From: Medicago truncatula
Taxonomy: Eukaryota > Streptophyta > Magnoliopsida > Fabales > Fabaceae
Reading direction: 5' to 3'
Assembly (NCBI RefSeq): GCF_003473485.1
Contig: NC_053043.1
Span: 6,024,001 to 6,088,000 of the forward strand
DNA: 64,000 bases
Each line of letters starts with the position of its first letter. Position 1 is the stretch's first letter. Made by a program: the position numbers and the translations under genes. This document shows, piece by piece, positions 18,241 through 38,367 of the stretch. The notes under the pieces were generated by a model, which was given only the letters and a program-made list of their open reading frames with translations, was not told the DNA's origin and ran no database searches.

Positions 18241-20685
18241 ATGGTACTTGGACACTGGGTGTTCAAATCACATGACAGACAAGAAATCTTGGTTCTCTGA
18301 ATTAGATGATTCAGTTAACAGAAAAATAAGATTTGCAGACAATAGTATAGTTTGTGCAGCTAATATTGGAAAAGTACTGATTCATAGGAAGGATGGCAAG
18401 AAAGCTTGCATCACTGATGTGTTGTATGTACCAAACATGAGAAACAGTCTCATTAGTATTGGTCAATTACGGTAAAAAGGGTACGCTATGAAGGGTGAGG
18501 CACAAGCTATGAAGGTATCTGATAGCAAGAGTAAGTTGATTCTGAAAGCTCCTATGTCAAAGCAAAGAACTTTCAAAATCAACATCAGTGTTATTGAAGA
18601 TAAATGTCTGCTATCAGAAGTTAAGAGTGAAAATTGGTTATGGCATCAAAGATATGGGCATATCAATTTCAGGGACTTGAATATGCTTAGTGAGAATAAA
18701 ATGGTGCAAGGTTTACCAAAGATAAAGCTGACTAATGAAGTATGTGATATGTGTTGTACTGGAAAGCAAACTAGAAGTTCATACAATAAATCTCAGGTAA
18801 TGATCATGGTTGGATATCACTCAACTGGTGCCTACAAACTATATGATCCAAATAGTAAGAAAATAATATTCATCAAGGATGTGAAGTTTGATGAAACAAA
18901 GTGTTGGAACTGGAAAGACAAGGCATCAAATAACTTTGACAGTCACTTCTATCTATCTGATTCAGAAACAGAAGATGCTGGGACTGAAGAACAAGAAGAA
19001 ATAGTTGGTGATACAGATGAAGGAGATGCAGGTGTTGTTAATAGGCCAATAAGGAATACTCAACCACCAGTCAGGTTGAGAGATTTTGAGAGATTTCCTG
19101 GTCAAGCAGTCACAGATGAAGGTGAAATTGTGCAATCAGCAATGCTTGCTGAAGCTGAACCAATATCTTTTGAGGAAGCTCTTAAACAAAATCACTGGAA
19201 GAAAGCAATGATTGAAGAACTAGACTCTATAGAGAAGAATGAAACTTGGAGATTAGTTCAACTACCTACTGATAAGAAGTGTATTGATGTTAAGTGGGTT
19301 TTCAAGACAAAACTGAAGCAGATGGTCAGGTCGCAAAATACAAGGCCAGGCTAGTTGCAAGAGGATTCTTACAGAAGTATGGTCAAGATTATTATGAAGT
19401 ATATGCTCCAGTGGCAAGGATGGAAACAATCAGATTGATTGTTGCTATAGCAGTCAAGAACAACTGGTCAATGTACCAGTTAGATGTGAAATCAGCATTT
19501 CTCAATGGTGAGCTTGAAGAAGAAATATATGTGAATCAACCACCAGGATTTGAGATAAAGGGAAAGGGGGAGTATGTATATAAGCTTGACAAAGCTCTGT
19601 ATAGTTTAAAGCAAGCTCCAAGAGCTTGGAGTAAGAAAATAGATAGTTTTCTTGTTCAACAAGGTTTCCTGAAATGTGTAACTAAACATGGAATTTACTG
19701 CAGAAACACCACTAAAAAGCTTATTGAATGCTTATATGTAGATGACATGATTGTTACTGGAAACAATGAAGAAGAAATGAAGGTTTTTAAGAAAAACATG
19801 ATGAAGAGGTTTGAGATGTCTGATCTGAGCAATCTCACATACTTTCTAGGAATTGAGTTTGAAATGAATTCACAAGGAATTCTGATACATCAAAGGAAGT
19901 ATGCACAAAATGTTTTGAAGAGGTTTAATATGATGAACTGCAAACCAATTTCAACTCCAGTTGACACAGGAGTGAAATTGTCTTTGGTAAATGATGAGAA
20001 AGAAGTGGATCCAACTCTATTCAAGCAAATTGTGAGTTCATTGAGGTATTTGTGCCATACAAGACCTGATATTGCATATGGTGTAGGTTTGATCAGCAGG
20101 TACATGGTGAAACCTACCACCTCACATCTAGTTGCAGCAAAGAGGAATCTGAGATTTGAGAAGGGTACTAGCAATTATGGTATCCAGTACTCTAAGAATC
20201 AGAGTGGTGAACTAGTAGGGTACTCAGACTATGATTGGAGTGGAGATAAATATGACAGGAAAAGCAATGTTGCTTATGTGTTCATGATTGGAAATGCAGC
20301 CTTTTCATGGAGTTCTAAGAAGGAAGCAGTAGTTGCATTATCTTCCTGTGAGGCAGAGTACATTGCAGCTTCTATGACAGCATGTCAAGCTCAATGGATC
20401 AACATGCTACTGATGGAATTACAATTGGTGAAGGATGAGAATACGGAGCTCAGAATTGATAGCAAATCTGCTATAGACTTGGAAAAACATCCAGTAGCAC
20501 ATGGTAGGAGCAAGCATATTGAAACCAAATTCCATTTTTTAAGAGACCAGGTGAACAATGGAAAGTTGGAAGTAAAGCACTGCAAAACAGATGAGCAGAT
20601 AGCAGACCTGCTCACAAAGCCATTGAAGCTAAGCAGCTTTGATTACTTGAAGAAGAAGTTAGGAATGGCTGAAGCATCTAAGTAA
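18241..20685 (+). pseudogene. Copia pol relic (protease, pre-integrase, RT, RNase H; integrase core deleted)
   Basis: The protease motif DTGCSNHMT lies at about 18250-18276. A TAA stop at 18473-18475 breaks the frame just before KGYAMKGE. The GAG-pre-integrase zinc site follows (HQRYGH and CDMCC, about 18640-18755). At about 18796 the sequence jumps from YNKSQ to VGYHSTGAYKLYDP, so the catalytic D-D-E integrase core is gone. Reverse transcriptase is otherwise well kept after a frameshift near 19320: VARGFLQKYG, DVKSAFLNGELEEEIYV, and the active site YVDDMIVTG at about 19735. RNase H has SDYDWSGDK, SSCEAEYIA and IDSKSAI. The open frame from 19294 to 20685 is uninterrupted. Confidence 0.92.
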
Positions 20686-29200: not shown

Positions 29201-30939
29201 TATGTTTTTGTTATAATTTTTTTAACAAAGAAATTTTCAAATGAAAAATCCGTTTGAATAGGATATCTTAAAATGTCATTCTAAGTATTTCATCATTTTG
29301 TTAAAAAAAAATTTGGATACTAAATTTTGAAAAAATCTCTAAAAAAAAAAGCTATTTCAAATAGCTTTTCATAAAAATCATTTTTGAAGTCATTTTGAAA
29401 AAATATGTAATTTTTACTATGTAAAATCTCGAACAATGAATATTTAAGTTAGTGAATGTCAAAATCTCTTTTTTAACTTATATTAAATGAGTTTGAAATA
29501 ACTTCTACTATTTTTGACTAAATTTCCAAAAAATCTATTTTTAGAAATACAAAGAAAAATCCATTTTTTTAGAATCTAAAACAAACGGGCCTTTACTAAC
29601 CCATTACTCTTATTATACTAATATGTCTAGTCAATATCAAGTTTAGTATAACTTGTACAGTTCATCTATGCAACAATCCTAGACAATAATATATCCTACT
29701 ATATACTGAATTTTCTGTGTTACACCCGTAGAAAATGTAAAATTCCCCCTGCAACCAATCGTTGTGTTCTTGATATATAAGCCATCCCTCTTCACATGTA
29801 AATAAAAGTAAAACTAGAGAAAGATGGTGAACTGTTTACACGTGCTAAAGGTGGATAGACTTATCGTGGGAAAGACCATTTTTTTATAAAACCAATGGTG
29901 GTGACAAAAAATCACACGTTCGTTGCCTTTGATGAACATGTAGACTTGTAGTGGTAGCACTGTTTGGGAGAGCTATGTATTTGGGGAGTTATGTATTTGG
30001 GGATTTAGGATTGACTTATTTAAGTTTATCTACCGGCTTAAACGCTTGTGACACTGTTTGGGAGAGCTTATGAGATGTCCATTAGATGTTTTCAGTTTAT
30101 TTCCACATGCCCTCTCCAAGATAGCTTGTGAAAACAACTTATAACTTATGAAAAGTTTAACTTTATTTTATCTTTTGTTATAAAAATAGCTTATATATAA
30201 ACAATTATATATAACTTGTGACACTGTTTGGGAGAGCTTATGAGATGTCCATTAGATGTTTTCAGTTTATTTCCACATGCCCTCTACAAGATAGCTTGTG
30301 AAAACAACTTATAACTTATGAAAAGTTTAACTTTATTTTATCTTTTGTTATAAAAATAGCTTATATATAAACAATTATATGCTGAAAGCTTAATCTATAA
30401 GCTCTCAACAAGAACTTTGTATGTATGCGAGTTATTAAAAAACTTTTGTTTGCTTTTGCATGCAGCTATATGCTTGGTGTTCAAGGATTGTTGCCTCACT
30501 AACTGCCTGTTCTCGCAAAGAAGATAAGTTTGGGGCTGCTCAGCTTTCTGGGAGTAACGCTGCTGTGGTTTCGACCCTGATATCATGCCTTCTTGCTGTC
30601 GAGAATTTCATGGGAAAGAAAACAAACCTGCAATCACCAAATCAGCTGTTGGGATCTGCTGGTATCAAATGGGCAACGGCGAATAGTGGAAGATTAGATA
30701 TTGCAGCTGCTTCTGTTAAAAGAAAAAACGGGCCAGTAAATTCAAAAGCTTATGCTATTGCCGACGTTCTCAAGACATCGATCTACCAAATAGTATCTGC
30801 ATTCCATGATGAGATGTTGTCTGGTACTAAATCAAGTCTTCTGGAGAAGGACTGGATCACAAGCGAGAAACCACTTTTCGGTACTCGTGAGATGCTTATA
30901 CAAAAATTACGTCTTTTCCTTGATTTTCGGGCTACCTAG
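26291..30939 (+). CDS. NDC1: Nucleoporin NDC1 (transmembrane nuclear pore ring protein)
   Basis: Four exons (26291-26707, 27326-27550, 28167-28535, 30466-30939) join in frame to 494 residues. NDC1 is one of the few membrane-spanning nucleoporins and anchors the pore complex in the nuclear envelope. The N-terminal half has five to six hydrophobic segments, with landmarks [31 protein letters not shown] and [20 protein letters not shown]. The C-terminal half is soluble: [52 protein letters not shown] and the terminal [10 protein letters not shown]. These match the plant Ndc1_Nup family (Arabidopsis At1g73240 as I recall). The ATG at 26291 is the first in frame. Intron 1 and intron 3 contain repeats described in the findings. 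Confidence 0.92.
29154..29592. mobile_element. Foldback MITE in NDC1 intron 3
   Basis: GATCCGTTTGTTATAGC at the left faces CTAAAACAAACGGGCC at the right as inverted ends. The interior is symmetric and AT-rich, with an inner palindrome AAGCTATTTCAAATAGCTTT near 29350-29370. No coding capacity is seen. The ends resemble hAT- or Mutator-derived MITEs, but no target duplication was established. Confidence 0.65.
30045..30380. repeat. 170-bp tandem duplication in NDC1 intron 3
   Basis: Two units starting CTTGTGACACTGTTTGGGAG at 30045 and 30215 are almost identical through ATATATAAACAATTATAT. I see only one clear difference (CTCTCCAAG versus CTCTACAAG). The second unit ends about 85 bases before the exon 4 acceptor. 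Confidence 0.93.
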
Positions 30940-31381: not shown

Positions 31382-31390
31382 GCTATAGGT
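31382..31390. repeat. Left 9-bp target-site duplication of the MULE
   Basis: GCTATAGGT immediately precedes the element. The right copy at 37974-37982 reads GCTATAAGT, with one difference. Nine bases is the usual target duplication of Mutator-like elements. Confidence 0.85.
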
Positions 31391-31700
31391 GAATTTTTTT
31401 TTTTCTGCCCTATTTCTTGCCAAAAAACACAAAACTGCTCTACTTTTTCTTAAAATTGCATAAATGCCCTACTTTTTCTGGTACCCCTGTCACCACACAA
31501 TCCCAAGTTGCGGGGTATCCTCAAAGTTGACGAATTTTTTGTCCTTATTACACCCCACAACTCCAAGTTGCGGGGTACTTTCTTTATTTTTTTTTTTAAA
31601 TTTTTAACTACCAAGCAAGATGGACTTGCGAGGTAGTTTTTATTTTTTATTTTTTTAAATTTAAATACCCCACAACTTGGAGTTGTAAGGTATTTATCAT
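31391..31700 (+). repeat. Left TIR of the MULE
   Basis: It begins GAATTTTTTTTTTTCTGCCC and mirrors the right end over about 310 bases. It contains several short hairpins of the type CCCCACAACT-x-AGTTGCGGGG, and the arm pair CTACCAAGCAAG/CTTGCGAGGTAG. Confidence 0.93.
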
Positions 31701-32050
31701 GTTTTCTGCGCCAATAACAAAAAAAATAGAAAAAAACTTAATTTTAATAAACTAATAACAAATATACAATTATTACAAATGTCCTCCTGTCCCACACCTT
31801 CGTCTTCGATGATTTCTTTGACGATTTACTTGAGCGTCATGTTGGGTTTCGTCATTGTTATCTGTAGTTGATTGTGTCTGACTGCCATAACCCAACGTCA
31901 ACAACACATCGTGTTTCCTTGTTGGCCAACCCATATCCAGAAATTGTTCATTGGAGTTCAACGCATCTGGAGAGAAGTGAGATAGTGATTTGTTGGTGTT
32001 GGCTGGTTGTAGTTTTGGTTGGTGTACATTGGGTATTGGGGGTTGTTGTA

Positions 32051-32074
32051 GGGGGGGGGGGGGGGGGGGGGGGG
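32051..32074. repeat. Poly-G tract of 24
   Basis: Twenty-four consecutive G residues stand directly next to the TAA stop codon (32075-32077) of the minus-strand PMD gene, so its transcript would carry a C24 run at the start of the 3' UTR. The G strand could form quadruplex structures. Confidence 0.9.
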
Positions 32075-34077
32075 TTAATTGGTGTTGGACGGTCCAGCTT
32101 GGCTTGGGTCATTATAGGAGAAGTAGTTACTGTTGGATGGTCCAGTTTGGTTTGGGTCATTGTAACCAAAGTTTGACATTGAATTTAGTTGGTAAGTTGA
32201 CTGATAATGAGGGTTATATGCATTTCTTGGGGTGGTATATGGTGGTGGTTGGATGATATTTTGTTGTGGGGTGTCAAGAAAATCATACATTATAGAACCT
32301 TGAGTGTTTTGTGTTGTAGGTGGTTGGGATTGAGGATCATCTAGTCGATTAAGAAAGTCTTCGTCCCAAAAATCATCATGAATTGGTGGTTGGTTGTTGT
32401 GAATTTCAGGTTCATGCTCTAGTTCTATCTCCAGCTCTTCTTCTTCTTCTGGATCTGAATTTATTGGCATTCTGTCAATTGAAATCCTTAGACGTGGATT
32501 GCAAGTGGTTGTCAACCAATCAATATACGAATGAGTTGGGGTGAGAGATTTTGGCCGCATTCGAGGTAATGTATAAAGTCGTCGATTGTCCCAATGTTCG
32601 CTCTCTTGTGGAAAGCGAAAACCTTTTGATTCGTACCACGCCTTGTACCGTTTGTCCAACTTATGGAATTGCTGCATGTTTATTGGGGCCCCTGGTATTT
32701 CTTGTGGCAAACCAAATTGGAGCTTGACCCTATCAGTTGGATGCCATTCAACTTTATCAAAACATATAAGGTAAGTTGTTGCAGTACAATCCCAATAGTC
32801 AGCAGGAAAATCGTGTGGAACTCTCTTGTATGGTCTCCATTTAAACTGGGACAAAAGAGAATATTTAGTGTATTGTTAATAATTTTGTTATATATATGTA
32901 TATATATGTGAAGGAATAATTCAAAAATGAAGGATATATTACATCATGTTGTAGTATGTCATCAAACTGTTTTCTGTAAGATATAGTGTCATGGCTTGGA
33001 TTGTCGTAGTACCTTGAACCTACTCCTGTCCATCTAACAAATTAAATTAAAAAATTAGATTTACTAAAAAAAAAAATAGTAATAGGCGAGAATATGTGCG
33101 GGAATTAATAAAAAAAAAATGGTGGTGACCATGCTTACTTTAATCCTAACGGCCACTGGAGTGGTTTTGAATTTCTCGGAGCGATATGAGTCAATCGACA
33201 ATATCCCCAAACTTGTAAGAGAAAATGACATCCAGCTATAACTTTTATGTTTGGGTGGGACGCCTCGCACAAGCCACAATAAAGGTAAGCCAAAACTGCC
33301 GATCCCCAACTATATTTTCTTGTTTCATTAAAATCAATTAACAAATACAACCAAGAGTTGTGCACATATAATCCAGTGTATTTGGAAACAAGAAACCCCC
33401 AATGAGGTATAGTAGGTACCTCCTAGTGTGTTGTATTTTGACCTCTGGAGGCGATTGTTGATTGAAGGTTTGATCGACCATATTTTCCTTTAACCACGCC
33501 AACGAGAGAGTAAAACCATCATTTTTGCGTTCTGGAGCAGCTATTCCCAATAGTTCAAAACAAATATCCCATGAAAGATGTGGAGGAGCCGTAACAATTT
33601 GTCCTCCAAAAGGTAAGCCAAGTAACATATATACATCTTCCAGCGTGATTGTACATTCACTTGTTCGAAAATGAAAAGTATGTGTCTCGGATCACCATCT
33701 TTCTACAAGAGCGGTTACAATATGTCTGTCAATAAATGGACTTGGTTGTATGTGTTGTCGTGTACGAGTGCTTAGAGGTGCACCCTCTTCATCCTAACCA
33801 AAAAAAAAAAGAAAGGAAGAATATATAATTAAATTAAAAAGATAGTCATAAAATTAAAAAAATAAAATAGTCATAAAATTAAAAATATATATATATATTC
33901 TCTTTAAAACTGGATTCATAAGAAGTCATAAAATTAAAAAAACATAATTTATAATTACAACTGCATTAATAATTAAAAAATATAAACGAAATTAATAAAA
34001 ATAATAGTCATATATACCCATTTTCTGATGTGTTGTTCCATGAACCTATGTTCATTTTCCAACCACAAGTATGCCAT
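32075..34077 (-). pseudogene. Plant mobile domain (PMD/MAIN-like) gene, broken
   Basis: Four exons on the minus strand: 34077-34018, 33793-33139, 33033-32943 and 32845-32075. The start MAYLWLENEHRFMEQHIRKW joins by a GT-AG intron to a PMD (PF10536) fold: ITLEDVYMLLGLPFGGQ, SWGSAVLAYLYCGLCEA, PNIKVIAGCHFLLQVWGY, then WTGVGSRYYDNPSHDT, FKWRPYKRVPHDF and LPQEIPGAPINM. A proline/asparagine/glutamine-rich acidic tail follows. PMD proteins include MAIN and MAIL1, nuclear factors for silencing and genome stability, and many transposon-borne copies. Here a TGA at 33692-33694 replaces the Arg codon in ERW-R-xETHTFH, and one frameshift lies near 33385, so no full protein is made. Exon 2 length agrees with a one-base loss. 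Confidence 0.88.
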
Positions 34078-34221
34078 TGCTTTGTATAATTTGTTTGAAA
34101 TAAAATGTTATGTGAGTGATTAAGAAAAGAATTGAGATGAGTTGAATATGTGGAAAGAGTAAGAATATAAATGTGGTATTTATAATGTAAGAATGGTTGT
34201 TGTATAAGATGTAAAGGAATG

Positions 34222-34500
34222 CAAGACAGCAGTGTTTCTCTAAGACAGCAGTGTTTCTCTACAAACCAGCAAATTTCAATTATGATAGAAATGACCATTG
34301 CATGAAAGCAGACGCATGGTGTTCAACAGTGTTGAATTATTTTGTAAACTTTGCTGCATGAAATGACCATTGCATGAAAGCAGACGGATGGTGTTCAACA
34401 GTGTTGAATTAATTTGTAAACTTTGCTGCATGAAATGACCATTGCATGTAAAAAAGCCATTTATTTGTACATGAAATTTCTGCATGAAATGACCAATGAT
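34222..34500. repeat. Tandem repeats in the divergent promoter region of the MULE
   Basis: A 19-bp unit (AAGACAGCAGTGTTTCTCT) is repeated twice at about 34222-34261. It is followed by a 72-bp unit starting ATGACCATTGCATG at 34291 and 34363, with a partial third copy at 34435. The block lies between the PMD start (34077) and the transposase start (34796). Confidence 0.9.
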
Positions 34501-34795
34501 GCTACTTCACGTGAAGCTCATGCTGGCCATCAAAAGGACCGACATGCCTCTGATCCGCTGGCGCGTGCACATGCTACCCCGCAACACCAGGTTGTGTTGT
34601 ACCCTGCAACTGGCGCGTGTAGCAGGTACCTCGCAAGGCCAGATTGCGTGCTATTTTGTTTATGTTTTTCTTTTTTCGTTCACAAATAATTGGAGGCAGA
34701 TTACATGTTATTATATAAGTGATCTCTTCATTTATAATTTGTATCAAACCATTCTACATCAAACTCTTACTCATTTCTTAATACCAAACCACTTA

Positions 34796-37426
34796 ATGGC
34801 ACCACAACCAAATATAAACGTTTATGTGTACTACAACGGCGAAGTTAAACAAAATGAATCTGGGATTTTTTTTCAAAGCCAGTACACCAAAGGTTTTAAG
34901 GTGAGTATGGGTAGTACTTACTTGCATCTCAAAAAAAAAAAGAATAGCAGAAAAAGTATGTATCGGAGATAATATGGTTGTGTCTGAAATTTTATGTCGG
35001 AATCCCATGTTTGTTGGAGCTAGCACAATTCACTACCAGGCGTTAAGAATAACCGATAACGACGATGTCGAGTTTATGTTTGACGTACATAAGATTCACA
35101 GTTCTTTGTCCTACATAGAGCTTTATGTTACGTTTGAGATGAAGAATCCAACATCTAATCCTGAGTTAAATTACCCATCAAGTTCTAGTCAATTCTACAA
35201 TCCATCATCATCACAACCGCACTACAATCCATCATCATCACAACCTTTTCAGTCACAATGGTCACAAAATCAATACGAACCATCACAAAGATTAACTCAA
35301 GTTGATCCCTCTCAAACACAATCTCAAACTTTAAACGATGAAATAAATATATTCACCTCCCAAATCCAGGACCAATCAAATGATGAAGACGATGATGATG
35401 AAGAACTCCTTGCTGCACAAAACGGTGATGAGAACGAAGAAGACGAAGACGACATTGTGCCACAACTACCAATTTCACCGATCAGAGCTTCTTACAACCC
35501 ACCAAGGTCTATGCGCAACATCATTGATGACCACTCAACTGAGCTTTATCAGTCAATGACTCTTCCAGTCGATGAAGGTATTTCTCCGAGGATGCAATTT
35601 CATAACAAGAATGATTGCATTCTCGCAATTAGATATTATCACATAAAAAATTCATGGGATTATTCTATGAAGCAATAAGATCATGAAAGGTATGTCATCA
35701 AATGTAAAGATACTACTTGTGGTTTCAAATTGCGGGCCTCGTGGAGGAAAAAAACTGATAGATGGGAGATTGGAAAAATGAAGGATCCTCATACATGTGT
35801 CTCAACAGAATTGACGCAAGGTCATTGCAAACTTAGTTACAATGTCATATGTGAAAGTGTTAAATCACTACTACATATGGATGCTTCAATTACGGTGAAA
35901 GTTATAATTGCACACATCCGAGAGAAGTTTAATTACACAATTTCTTACAGAAAGGCATGGAGAGCAAAAAATAAGGCGATTGAATCAATTTATGGTAACT
36001 GGGAGGATTCTTATAAAGAACTACCACAGTGGTTGATGGTCATGGAAAAAGATTTGTCAGGAACAATTATTGATTTTCAAACGGACCCATCAACAGAAGT
36101 GGTCAATGAGATCGTCTTCAAGCGTCTCTTTTGGGCCTTTCGTCCGTGCATCTTGGGCTTCGAATTCTGCAAACCAATTGTCCAGATTGACGCAACTTGG
36201 TTGTATGGTAAATACAAAGGAACATTGTTGTTAGTTGTTGCGCAAGATGGGAACAACAAGATATTTCCCATTGCTTTCGCAATCGTGAAAGGTGAGACCA
36301 AGGAGGCATGAAGTTTCTTTTTGAAAAATCTAAGGCAGCATGTCACCCCACAGGCGAACATATGCCTCATTTCTGATAGACATGTGTCGATAAAGAGCGC
36401 ATATGATGATCCTCAGAATGGATGGCATGATGCTCCGACAAGCCATGTGTTTTGTGTCCGACACATTGCACAAAACTTTATGCGATCGTTCAAGGATGGA
36501 GAACTTAAGAAGAAAGTTGAAGGCATGGGTAAAAATTATATCTCTATCCTTGTAATTTCGACATATTATTTGTTTAAAGAAGACACATCTAAATTTTTTC
36601 AAAACAATGCAGGTTACGCCATGAACATCCCAACATTCGAATACTAACGCTCTGAAATCCCTGTCGCGGACCGAATGGCTTTAGCATGGGTCGACAACAT
36701 TCCCAAAGAAAAGTGGACTCAATCACATGATGATGGTCGACGATGGGGCCACATGACAAGTAACTTGGTAGAGTCACAAAACAACGTGTATAAGGGAATT
36801 CGAGGACTCCCGATCACAGCAATTGTGAAAGCATCCTATTACAGTTTGGCGGCCTTGTTTGCTAAAAGAGGACATGAGGCAGCGGCAAAGGTTAATTCTG
36901 GTGAGCCATTTTCATCAAACATCATGAAATTTCTGAAGGCTGAGGTGATTAAATCCAACAGTCATAATGTCACTCAGTTTGACCGAGATGGTATACCTTC
37001 TTCGTCCGTGAAACCATCGACCATAAAGAAGGATTACCAAAGGGCGAATACAAGGTGGATCTGCAAAATAAATGGTGTGACTGTGGACGGTTCAGAGCGT
37101 TACATCTACCATGCTCACATGTCATTGCCGCCTGTTCTAGCTTTTGTCACGACTACAAGACTTTTGTCGATAACAAGTTCACAAATGAGTGTGTATACGC
37201 AGTATACAACATCCACTTCGACGTTGTTCACCACCAGACATATTGGCCTGATTATGCAGGACTAAAGGTGGTTCCTAACAAGTCCATGCGCAGGGTGAAG
37301 AAAGGTCGTCCACCAATTACTCGCATTAGGACCGAGATGGACGATGTGGAAACTGATAGAAGATGCGGCGTGTGTAGGATGTCTGGTCATTCCCGCAAAA
37401 ATTGCATTAATATTAGACATCAGTAG
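34796..37426 (+). pseudogene. MURA-like MULE transposase, broken
   Basis: The frame opens at 34796 (MAPQPNINVYVYYNGEV, the N-terminal PB1-like part). It continues with a Ser/Gln/Asp-rich linker, a MuDR zinc-binding region (ERYVIKCKDTTCGFKLRASW), and the DDE transposase: IDATWLYGKYKG, LISDRHVSIKSA and TSNLVESQNNVY hold the D, D and E. A SWIM finger follows (WCDCGRFRALHLPCSHV, about 37076-37125), then a CCHC knuckle (CGVCRMSGHSRKNC). One intron lies at 36529-36612. The lesions are a one-base expansion of an A-run at 34931-34941, stops at 35676 (TAA), 36309 (TGA for Trp) and 36645 (TAA), and a frameshift near 36990. Active MURA binds the TIRs and cuts and pastes the element; this copy cannot. 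Confidence 0.92.
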
Positions 37427-37660
37427 CAATCTAGTCTTTATTTCATATTTATTGTATTTGATATGTTTTTTATTTTATAAATATTATGATTATTATTGTA
37501 ATTACTTTATTATTAATGCCTAAATTAACATTATTAATATCCTGACCAAAATAATGCAACAAATTATCAAAAAATGAAATGGTGTGATAAATTGAAAGAT
37601 GAAAGAAAATATTTATAGTAGATGAAATAATATATTTTAATTAATTATAAAATTAAAAAA

Positions 37661-37973
37661 ATGACAAAAATACCTTGCAACTCCAAGTTGTGGGGTATTT
37701 AAATTTTTAAAAATAAAAAATAAAAACTACCTCGCAAGTCCATCTTGCTTGGTAGTTAAAAATTAAAAAAAAATAATAAAGAAAGTACCCCGCAACTTGG
37801 AGTTGTGGGGTATAATAAGGATAAAAAATTCGTCAACTTTGAGGGTACCCGCAACTTGGGGTTGTGTGGTGACAGGGGTACCAGAAAAAGTATGATATTT
37901 ATGCAATTTTTCGAAAAAGTATGGCAGTTTTGTGTTTTTTAACAAGAAGTAGGGCAGAAAAAAAAAAAAAATC
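37661..37973 (-). repeat. Right TIR of the MULE
   Basis: It is the reverse complement of the left end, closing with GGGCAGAAAAA and GATC-like ATC before the target copy. The same hairpins (ACCCCGCAACTTGGAGTTG) recur three times. Confidence 0.93.
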
Positions 37974-37982
37974 GCTATAAGT
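37974..37982. repeat. Right 9-bp target-site duplication of the MULE
   Basis: GCTATAAGT matches the left copy at eight of nine positions. Confidence 0.85.
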
Positions 37983-38220
37983 AGAACATAAGCTTGTCTA
38001 AGATAGAATTGTATTGCTACTTTGGTCTACGATAGAATTGTATTGCACATTCCAAGTTTTGTTTTCTCCTGCAACCGGATCATGATTCATGATAATAACT
38101 AATAAAATCTCATATTTTTTATTTTTAAATCTAAAATGATTCCATCACGTTTAAACTCTTACTTTATTATCCTATCTCATACTTTTTTTTTTCTTTTTTT
38201 CAGGTGAATCCTATCTTATA

Positions 38221-38367
38221 CTCTCTCCGTTTTTAAATATAAATAAAATTGACTTTTTAGATTCATTGATTTAATGATGTATGTGGTACATATTATGAAC
38301 CATATATATCATTAAATGAATGAACCAAAAAAGTCAATTTTATTTATATTAAAAAACGGAGGGAGTA
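38221..38367. mobile_element. CTCCCTCCGT-type (Stowaway-like) MITE
   Basis: CTCTCTCCGTTTTTAAATAT and ATATTAAAAAACGGAGGGAG are inverted ends of about 45 bases, sharing AAATAAAATTGACTTTTTAG. TA dinucleotides flank both ends, as expected for Tc1/mariner-derived MITEs. Confidence 0.85.

Follow-up and report, generated by a model that had tools for sequence, protein, structure and literature searches.

A decayed two-gene Mutator-like element of Medicago truncatula and a possible VANC-like role for its plant mobile domain protein

Positions 31391-37973 of a 64,000-nt stretch of the Medicago truncatula genome (contig NC_053043.1, positions 6,024,001 to 6,088,000; hereafter, the window) are occupied by a decayed Mutator-like element (MULE), in which Pfam detects MULE and SWIM domains on the + strand and a plant mobile domain (PMD) on the - strand. 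This copy is a dead member of a two-gene Mutator-like transposon family in this legume genome. Its terminal inverted repeats (TIRs; left, 31391-31695; right, 37668-37973) align over 183 nt at 96% and 121 nt at 91% complementarity, with a second alignment of 302 nt at 93%, and they are flanked by the target site duplications GCTATAGGT (31382-31390) and GCTATAAGT (37974-37982), which form a 9-bp duplication with one mismatch. The two long arms, together with the target duplications of related copies, rule out a chance inverted repeat. Within the left TIR lie two 27-bp imperfect palindromes (31491-31517 and 31551-31577), each of which contains the half-site TTGCGGGGTA (31508-31517 and 31568-31577), and two diverged units of the same series (31606-31636 and 31663-31693); palindrome units of the right TIR are found at 37671, 37728 and 37786.

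The PMD gene, on the - strand, consists of exon 1 (34018-34077, start codon 34075-34077), exon 2 (33139-33793), which encodes the core, exon 3 (32943-33033, placed by likeness to the related copy L012) and exon 4 (31773-32845), which encodes the end of the core, a low-complexity tail and a C-terminal basic-CGTGGH motif (31779-31796) and includes a G run at 32051-32074. The transposase gene, on the + strand, consists of exon 1 (34796-36528, MULE domain) and exon 2 (36613-37426, SWIM domain), with its DDE residues and CCHC knuckle read by eye in the translations. Between the two start sites lies a shared intergenic region of 718 bp (34078-34795), close to the 720 bp first estimated, with a 72-bp tandem duplication (34288-34431) and two palindromes (34575-34601 and 34627-34653). 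Both genes are broken. PMD exon 2 is interrupted by a TGA (33692-33694) and a frame break near 33365-33385 and has about 20 codons fewer than its counterpart in the related copy L009, and the transposase is spread over more than one frame, with frame breaks near 34931 and 36990 and in-frame stops at 35676, 36309 and 36645. The original prediction had described a complete element; its TIRs, duplication, domains and layout stand, and its completeness fails on the stops and frame breaks in both genes. Pfam matches in the window pieces were PF10551 and PF04434 for the transposase and PF10536 for PMD, at 92.7 and 49.9 bits (cut-off, 34.9). The L012 transposase matched PF10551 (E 5.5e-16), PF03108 and PF04434, and the L012 PMD protein matched PF10536 (E 3.2e-76) over profile positions 1-345 of 347.

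Relatives were sought across the genome (429,922,655 bases, 42 contigs) with a 317-residue transposase fragment, which returned at least 125 matches (125 of 507 candidates scored), and with PF10536, which returned at least 129 matches (117 of 1214 candidates scored); the window's own PMD was not among the PF10536 matches listed, which makes absences from them weak. Among the matches listed, a PMD match lay within 15 kb of 21 of 34 transposase matches at 85% or higher, 0 of 5 at 70-84%, 13 of 38 at 43-69% and 0 of 48 below 35%, and 43 of the 77 transposase matches at 43% or higher had none within that distance; these counts refer to matches and not to elements, a few of which give two. All 34 pairs in this clade were divergent (same-strand, 0; convergent, 0), which is the head-to-head order that the original prediction had proposed to look for in other copies. 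We also read 29 loci, namely the window and the surroundings of 28 of the 77 matches, chosen mostly by length. By tblastn, 25 of them contain PMD along its length, whole or decayed, inside the element and on the strand opposite to the transposase; among these, L009 is without exon 1 and L027 without the last part of PMD. The other four comprise L010 (no PMD), L020 (exon 4 only), L028 (tail only) and L025 (a PMD match about 10 kb away). L010, L020 and L028 are short copies, each with its own ends and an exact target duplication, which suggests that they arose by internal deletion; the PMD-less relatives by which a chance capture might have been recognized are thus three apparently deleted copies and one with PMD at a distance.

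Across the 29 loci, target duplications were exact over 9-10 bp in 22, differing in sequence between loci, and had one mismatch in three (L019, L035 and the window); those of L011, L025, L026 and L027 were not settled. By likeness, the copies fall into S1a (L012 type), S1b (L018 type), S1c (L009 and the window) and S2 (L029-L036), with S2 transposases about 60% identical to that of the window. Counting a gene as open when its main exons (PMD exons 2 and 4; both transposase exons) are at least 97% covered without a stop, and judging S2 transposases against the L012 query, PMD is open at 17 loci, the transposase at 16 and both at 13. L012, L014 and L015 are 99.9% identical and lie on three chromosomes, and residues 270-860 of the L012 transposase match a Medicago truncatula database protein at 100%. 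The predicted four-exon structure of the PMD gene was corroborated in intact relatives, as L012 (629 aa) and L029 (655 aa) agree in exon borders and intron phases. Transposase and divergent PMD are co-inherited in two deep lineages, S1 and S2, and both genes are open in young copies. The longest TIR alignments reach 462 nt in S2 and 530 nt in L010. In 7 of 8 S2 copies (not L035), the last PMD codons lie inside the aligned left TIR, and the PMD tail and the TIR are therefore constrained together.

The PMD core is under purifying selection, the absence of which the original prediction had named as a sign of chance capture. The ratio of nonsynonymous to synonymous divergence (dN/dS) for the core exon was 0.20 (0.11-0.35) for L012-L018, 0.24 (0.14-0.39) for L012-L026, 0.26 (0.17-0.39) for L012-L009 and 0.27 (0.17-0.42) for L018-L009, and the intervals exclude 1 in all four S1 pairs. 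For the same pairs in that order, dN/dS was 0.55, 0.49, 0.41 and 0.49 for PMD exon 4, 0.17, 0.16, 0.25 and 0.32 for transposase exon 1 and 0.06, 0.07, 0.09 and 0.10 for transposase exon 2, with a one-stop segment included in the two L018 pairs. Within S2, PMD exon 2 gave 0.09 (0.02-0.23) for L029-L034. Between S1 and S2, dN was 0.63-0.68 for PMD exon 2 and 0.39-0.41 for transposase exon 1, with dS saturated; PMD evolves faster than the transposase. Random capture of PMD is ruled out by these ratios, and the pairing is not a random recent event, because the genes keep their head-to-head order, the loci without PMD are mostly copies that look deleted and the PMD core is selected. PMD could still be viewed as transduplicated cargo without a role for the element, given that MULEs are known to capture gene fragments (PMC5418596) and that, at 3 of the 29 loci, PMD is wholly or largely missing next to the transposase. 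However, the low core dN/dS in the four S1 pairs, a full-length multi-exon gene with the same intron phases in two lineages and a single fixed orientation already disfavor this view, to which we give very little credence.

The non-coding DNA of these elements contains repeated motifs; for comparison, VANC21 and VANC6 each bind short motifs that recur outside the coding DNA of their own element (PMC5735166, PMC10398659). Of the four copies whose coding and non-coding DNA were separated, L012 and L018 each have TACCCCGCAA 9 times, the window has it 4 times, and L029 has TCCCGCCA 8 times; all occurrences are terminal or intergenic and none is coding. Over 300 shuffles of the non-coding DNA, the mean for either motif was at most 0.04 and the maximum was 1. 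Among 26 copies with ends found or estimated, TACCCCGCAA is present 4-9 times in each of 18 S1 copies and absent from 8 S2 copies, and TCCCGCCA is present 7-8 times in S2 and absent from S1. The intergenic region contains CCCGCAA in 14 of 16 S1 copies (not L021 or L023) and 0 of 8 S2 copies, and CCCGCCA in 8 of 8 S2 copies and 2 of 16 S1 copies (L023 and L027). Genome-wide, the S1 word CCACTTGCGGGGTA occurs at 240 places and the S2 word TTCATCTGGCGGGA at 41, with 0 for each reversed word. Among the 100 S1-word places listed, 99 fall into 25 clusters and 1 stands alone; 13 of these 26 spots are within 8 kb of a transposase or PMD match, one beside an S2 element. Because the words were taken from the elements, these counts show that they are private to the family and say nothing on what binds them. 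The motifs also occur genome-wide in clusters and end-to-end pairs with no gene match nearby, which look like short derivatives of the element.

These motifs bear on the possibility that PMD is a transposition subunit or helper, which would bind the TIR palindromes and recruit or stabilize the transposase. Motif density peaks in the TIRs at both ends, the gene-less clusters and pairs resemble short derivatives, and the two genes are co-inherited and under selection, all of which would fit a helper. Yet between S1 and S2 it is the outer 95 bp of the TIR that are alike (z 6-17 in four pairs), whereas positions 95-330, the palindrome zone, are barely so (z 2.5-5), and a site common to both lineages fits the transposase better; motif copies are also intergenic, far from the ends, and the nearest fold, described below, is that of an anti-silencing protein. 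The contrast suggests a conserved outer site for the conserved transposase and a diverged inner site for the faster-changing PMD. The original prediction had suggested that the gene pair may be a two-component transposition module, perhaps like the MURA and accessory gene of MuDR, and maize MuDR (MURA and MURB) is indeed alike in having two genes in one MULE; nothing was found that points to a role of PMD in DNA cutting or joining, and we regard a helper as unlikely.

The predicted structure of the PMD core, searched with a lupin PMD protein and pea MAIL2, matches the fold of VANC21 (PDB 9lnj), the DNA-binding anti-silencing protein of VANDAL21, which suggests from these relatives that the PMD core has this fold. 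The lupin protein is 39% identical to the L012 PMD over 69% of L012. The sole significant PDB match of MAIL2 is the same as that of the MULE-type PMD, so that MULE-type and host MAIL2 proteins share a predicted fold. A search of the genome for DUF1985, the domain of VANC-type proteins, gave no match over the cut-off and one weak match (64 of 64 candidates scored), and VANC-type proteins may be absent from this genome, in which PMD-carrying MULEs are numerous. A link between PMD and VANC was not found in the literature searched, and the paper behind 9lnj may make it; the accessible portions of papers that mention both PMD and VANC or VANDAL state no likeness between them, and a meeting report mentions the then unpublished VANC21 structure.

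Phylogenetic trees place the Medicago MULE PMDs in a legume group with proteins of pea, Lathyrus, vetch, chickpea, lupin and soybean (100/99 in the careful tree), outside the host MAIL2 rows, which form their own clade (100/100) with short branches. The quick tree held 73 rows and placed MAIL2 inside the other PMD rows. Of the 73, 14 (11 long or unsettled and three host intronless PMDs) were excluded from the careful tree, which, being rooted on MAIL2, is silent on the direction of transfer. The trees rule out a recent capture from legume MAIL2. In the quick tree, the MULE PMDs group with the MAIL2-like rows against the three host intronless PMDs; Arabidopsis MAIN, MAIL1 and MAIL3 and Gypsy PMD-A were in neither tree. 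Eudicots are reported to hold mainly genic PMD-C (Nicolau et al., 2020, PMC7156037), and if the MULE PMDs described here are PMD-C, at least one eudicot has many that are MULE-borne. Among 120 listed proteins, 15 terminate in a C-x-TGG motif preceded by a basic stretch; they come from lupin, pea, Lathyrus, chickpea, clover, Vigna, Arachis, Quillaja and sesame. Six gene models from Senna, Hibiscus, Lupinus and Heliosperma (P0020, P0039, P0058, P0079, P0083 and P0088) join MULE or SWIM and PMD on one strand, and a same-strand order therefore seems to occur outside Medicago. A dense array of PMD genes on contig C3 (about 23.03-23.27 Mb), most of them contained in one open frame of 540-800 aa, apparently consists of host genes and ranks with the best PF10536 matches listed for this genome.

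In a different account, PMD is a captured host gene that would act as a dominant negative on the MAIN/MAIL1/PP7L silencing complex without binding element DNA. In its favor, the host proteins MAIN and MAIL1 function in silencing and are binding partners of PP7L (PMC7156037), the fold predicted for MULE-type PMDs is also that predicted for the host proteins, and the capture of host PMD-C genes has been proposed by Ikeda et al., who raise an anti-silencing role as a speculation (PMC5418596). However, the position of MULE PMDs outside the host MAIL2 clade indicates no recent capture from that clade, and a general decoy would not need lineage-specific repeated motifs; we consider this account improbable.

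Both the pairing of PMD with MULEs and the suggestion of an anti-silencing role have been published before. Dupeyron et al. (2019, PMC6446971) report PMD in plant MULE groups 42 and 45-50, antisense in most members of MUDR group 50 and often so in MUDRAVI2 group 49, with PMD and/or DUF domains in half of the members of VANDAL group 45. Those groups resemble the present family in their 9-10 bp duplications, where given, SWIM or CCHC transposase and antisense PMD; by the description in their table, group 50 TIRs span 30-320 bp, in contrast to the 462 and 530 nt reached here, and the accessible portions of that paper list PMD without tests of selection, within-genome pairing, motifs or function. 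Ikeda et al. (2017) describe PMD-C fused to MULE transposases in grasses and Amborella; there, too, PMD travels with the transposase, whereas here a eudicot has a separate PMD gene with its own divergent start. A 2021 review (PMC8616336) repeats the anti-silencing idea and calls PMD a domain of unknown function. Host MAIN, MAIL1 and MAIL2, which are PMD-C genes, share PF10536 with the MULE proteins. Arabidopsis VANDAL21 (Hosaka et al., 2017, PMC5735166; Sasaki et al., 2023, PMC10398659) is likewise a MULE whose second protein, with the same predicted fold, evolves faster than its more conserved transposase, and it too has short family-specific motifs repeated in non-coding regions. It differs in having a DUF1985 protein instead of PMD (PF10536) and a 9-bp motif instead of paired palindromic half-sites, and VANC21 is an anti-silencer, whereas PMD is likened to it by predicted fold and motifs. 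The element belongs to a known kind of PMD-carrying MULE, and in our reading the VANC-like assignment is what is new.

Taken together, we lean modestly toward a reading in which PMD plays, in this family, the part that VANC plays in VANDALs, by binding lineage motifs and countering silencing. The PMD protein would bind the lineage-specific half-sites (TACCCCGCAA in S1, TCCCGCCA in S2) located in the TIRs and the shared promoter region, and this binding would keep or free the element from silencing and thereby allow expression of both genes; the expressed transposase could then act on the TIRs. The earlier suggestion that PMD could counteract host silencing gains support from the fold match predicted on relatives.

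Several observations weigh against this VANC-like reading. The fold match has an rmsd (root-mean-square deviation) of 4.2 and 11-12% identity, its Foldseek TM-scores are modest (0.31/0.46 and 0.29/0.55), and it was made on the lupin protein and pea MAIL2 and not on the Medicago PMD itself. DUF1985 scored at best 25.7 bits in PMD proteins, below the Pfam cut-off of 35.1, and was not found in L012 (threshold E 0.01), the L029 core (threshold E 5) or pea P0015. The motif counts of the left and right TIRs are not independent, the clean split between S1 and S2 is broken in the intergenic region by L023 and L027 (CCCGCCA) and by L021 and L023 (no CCCGCAA), a third intergenic repeat, GGCGCGTG, is common to both lineages (23 of 24 copies), and the motifs may be transposase-binding or promoter sites. 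The PMD tail is weakly constrained (0.41-0.55), and the S2 copies are close to each other, with several dN/dS intervals that include 1. Binding and anti-silencing by PMD are read from sequence, motifs and a predicted fold, and the sign of the effect is the weakest step, because host MAIN and MAIL1, of the same domain family, promote silencing (PMC7156037, PMC5418596).

Elsewhere in the window, an open frame matching nucleoporin Ndc1 (PF09531, E 2.6e-9; 30460-30939) ends about 450 bp before the element, which lies downstream of it. Just to the right of the element, two 74-nt arms with 89% complementarity and 1-nt spacing (38219-38367) form an inverted repeat whose ends make it look like a Stowaway-type miniature inverted-repeat transposable element. 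Open frames at 18488-20685 read by eye like pieces of a copia-type retroelement.

The VANC-like reading bears on why transposable elements carry PMD, and the predicted fold makes binding of PMD to the repeated half-sites directly and cheaply testable. With at least 13 two-gene copies whose main exons are open, in two lineages with different motifs, this plant offers a system for the study of specificity. A fold in common with a DNA-bound anti-silencing protein would link a host silencing pathway to an anti-silencing weapon of transposons. More broadly and more tentatively, at somewhat less than even chances, PMD and VANC could form one superfamily of sequence-specific DNA-binding proteins, in which the MULE-borne PMDs of flowering plants are dedicated anti-silencers that read their own palindromes and host MAIN/MAIL proteins are the same domain turned to the host side, or the source from which the elements drew. 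If this is true, many eudicot genes annotated as 'serine/threonine-protein phosphatase 7 long form homolog' or 'MAIN-LIKE' would be transposon anti-silencing genes.

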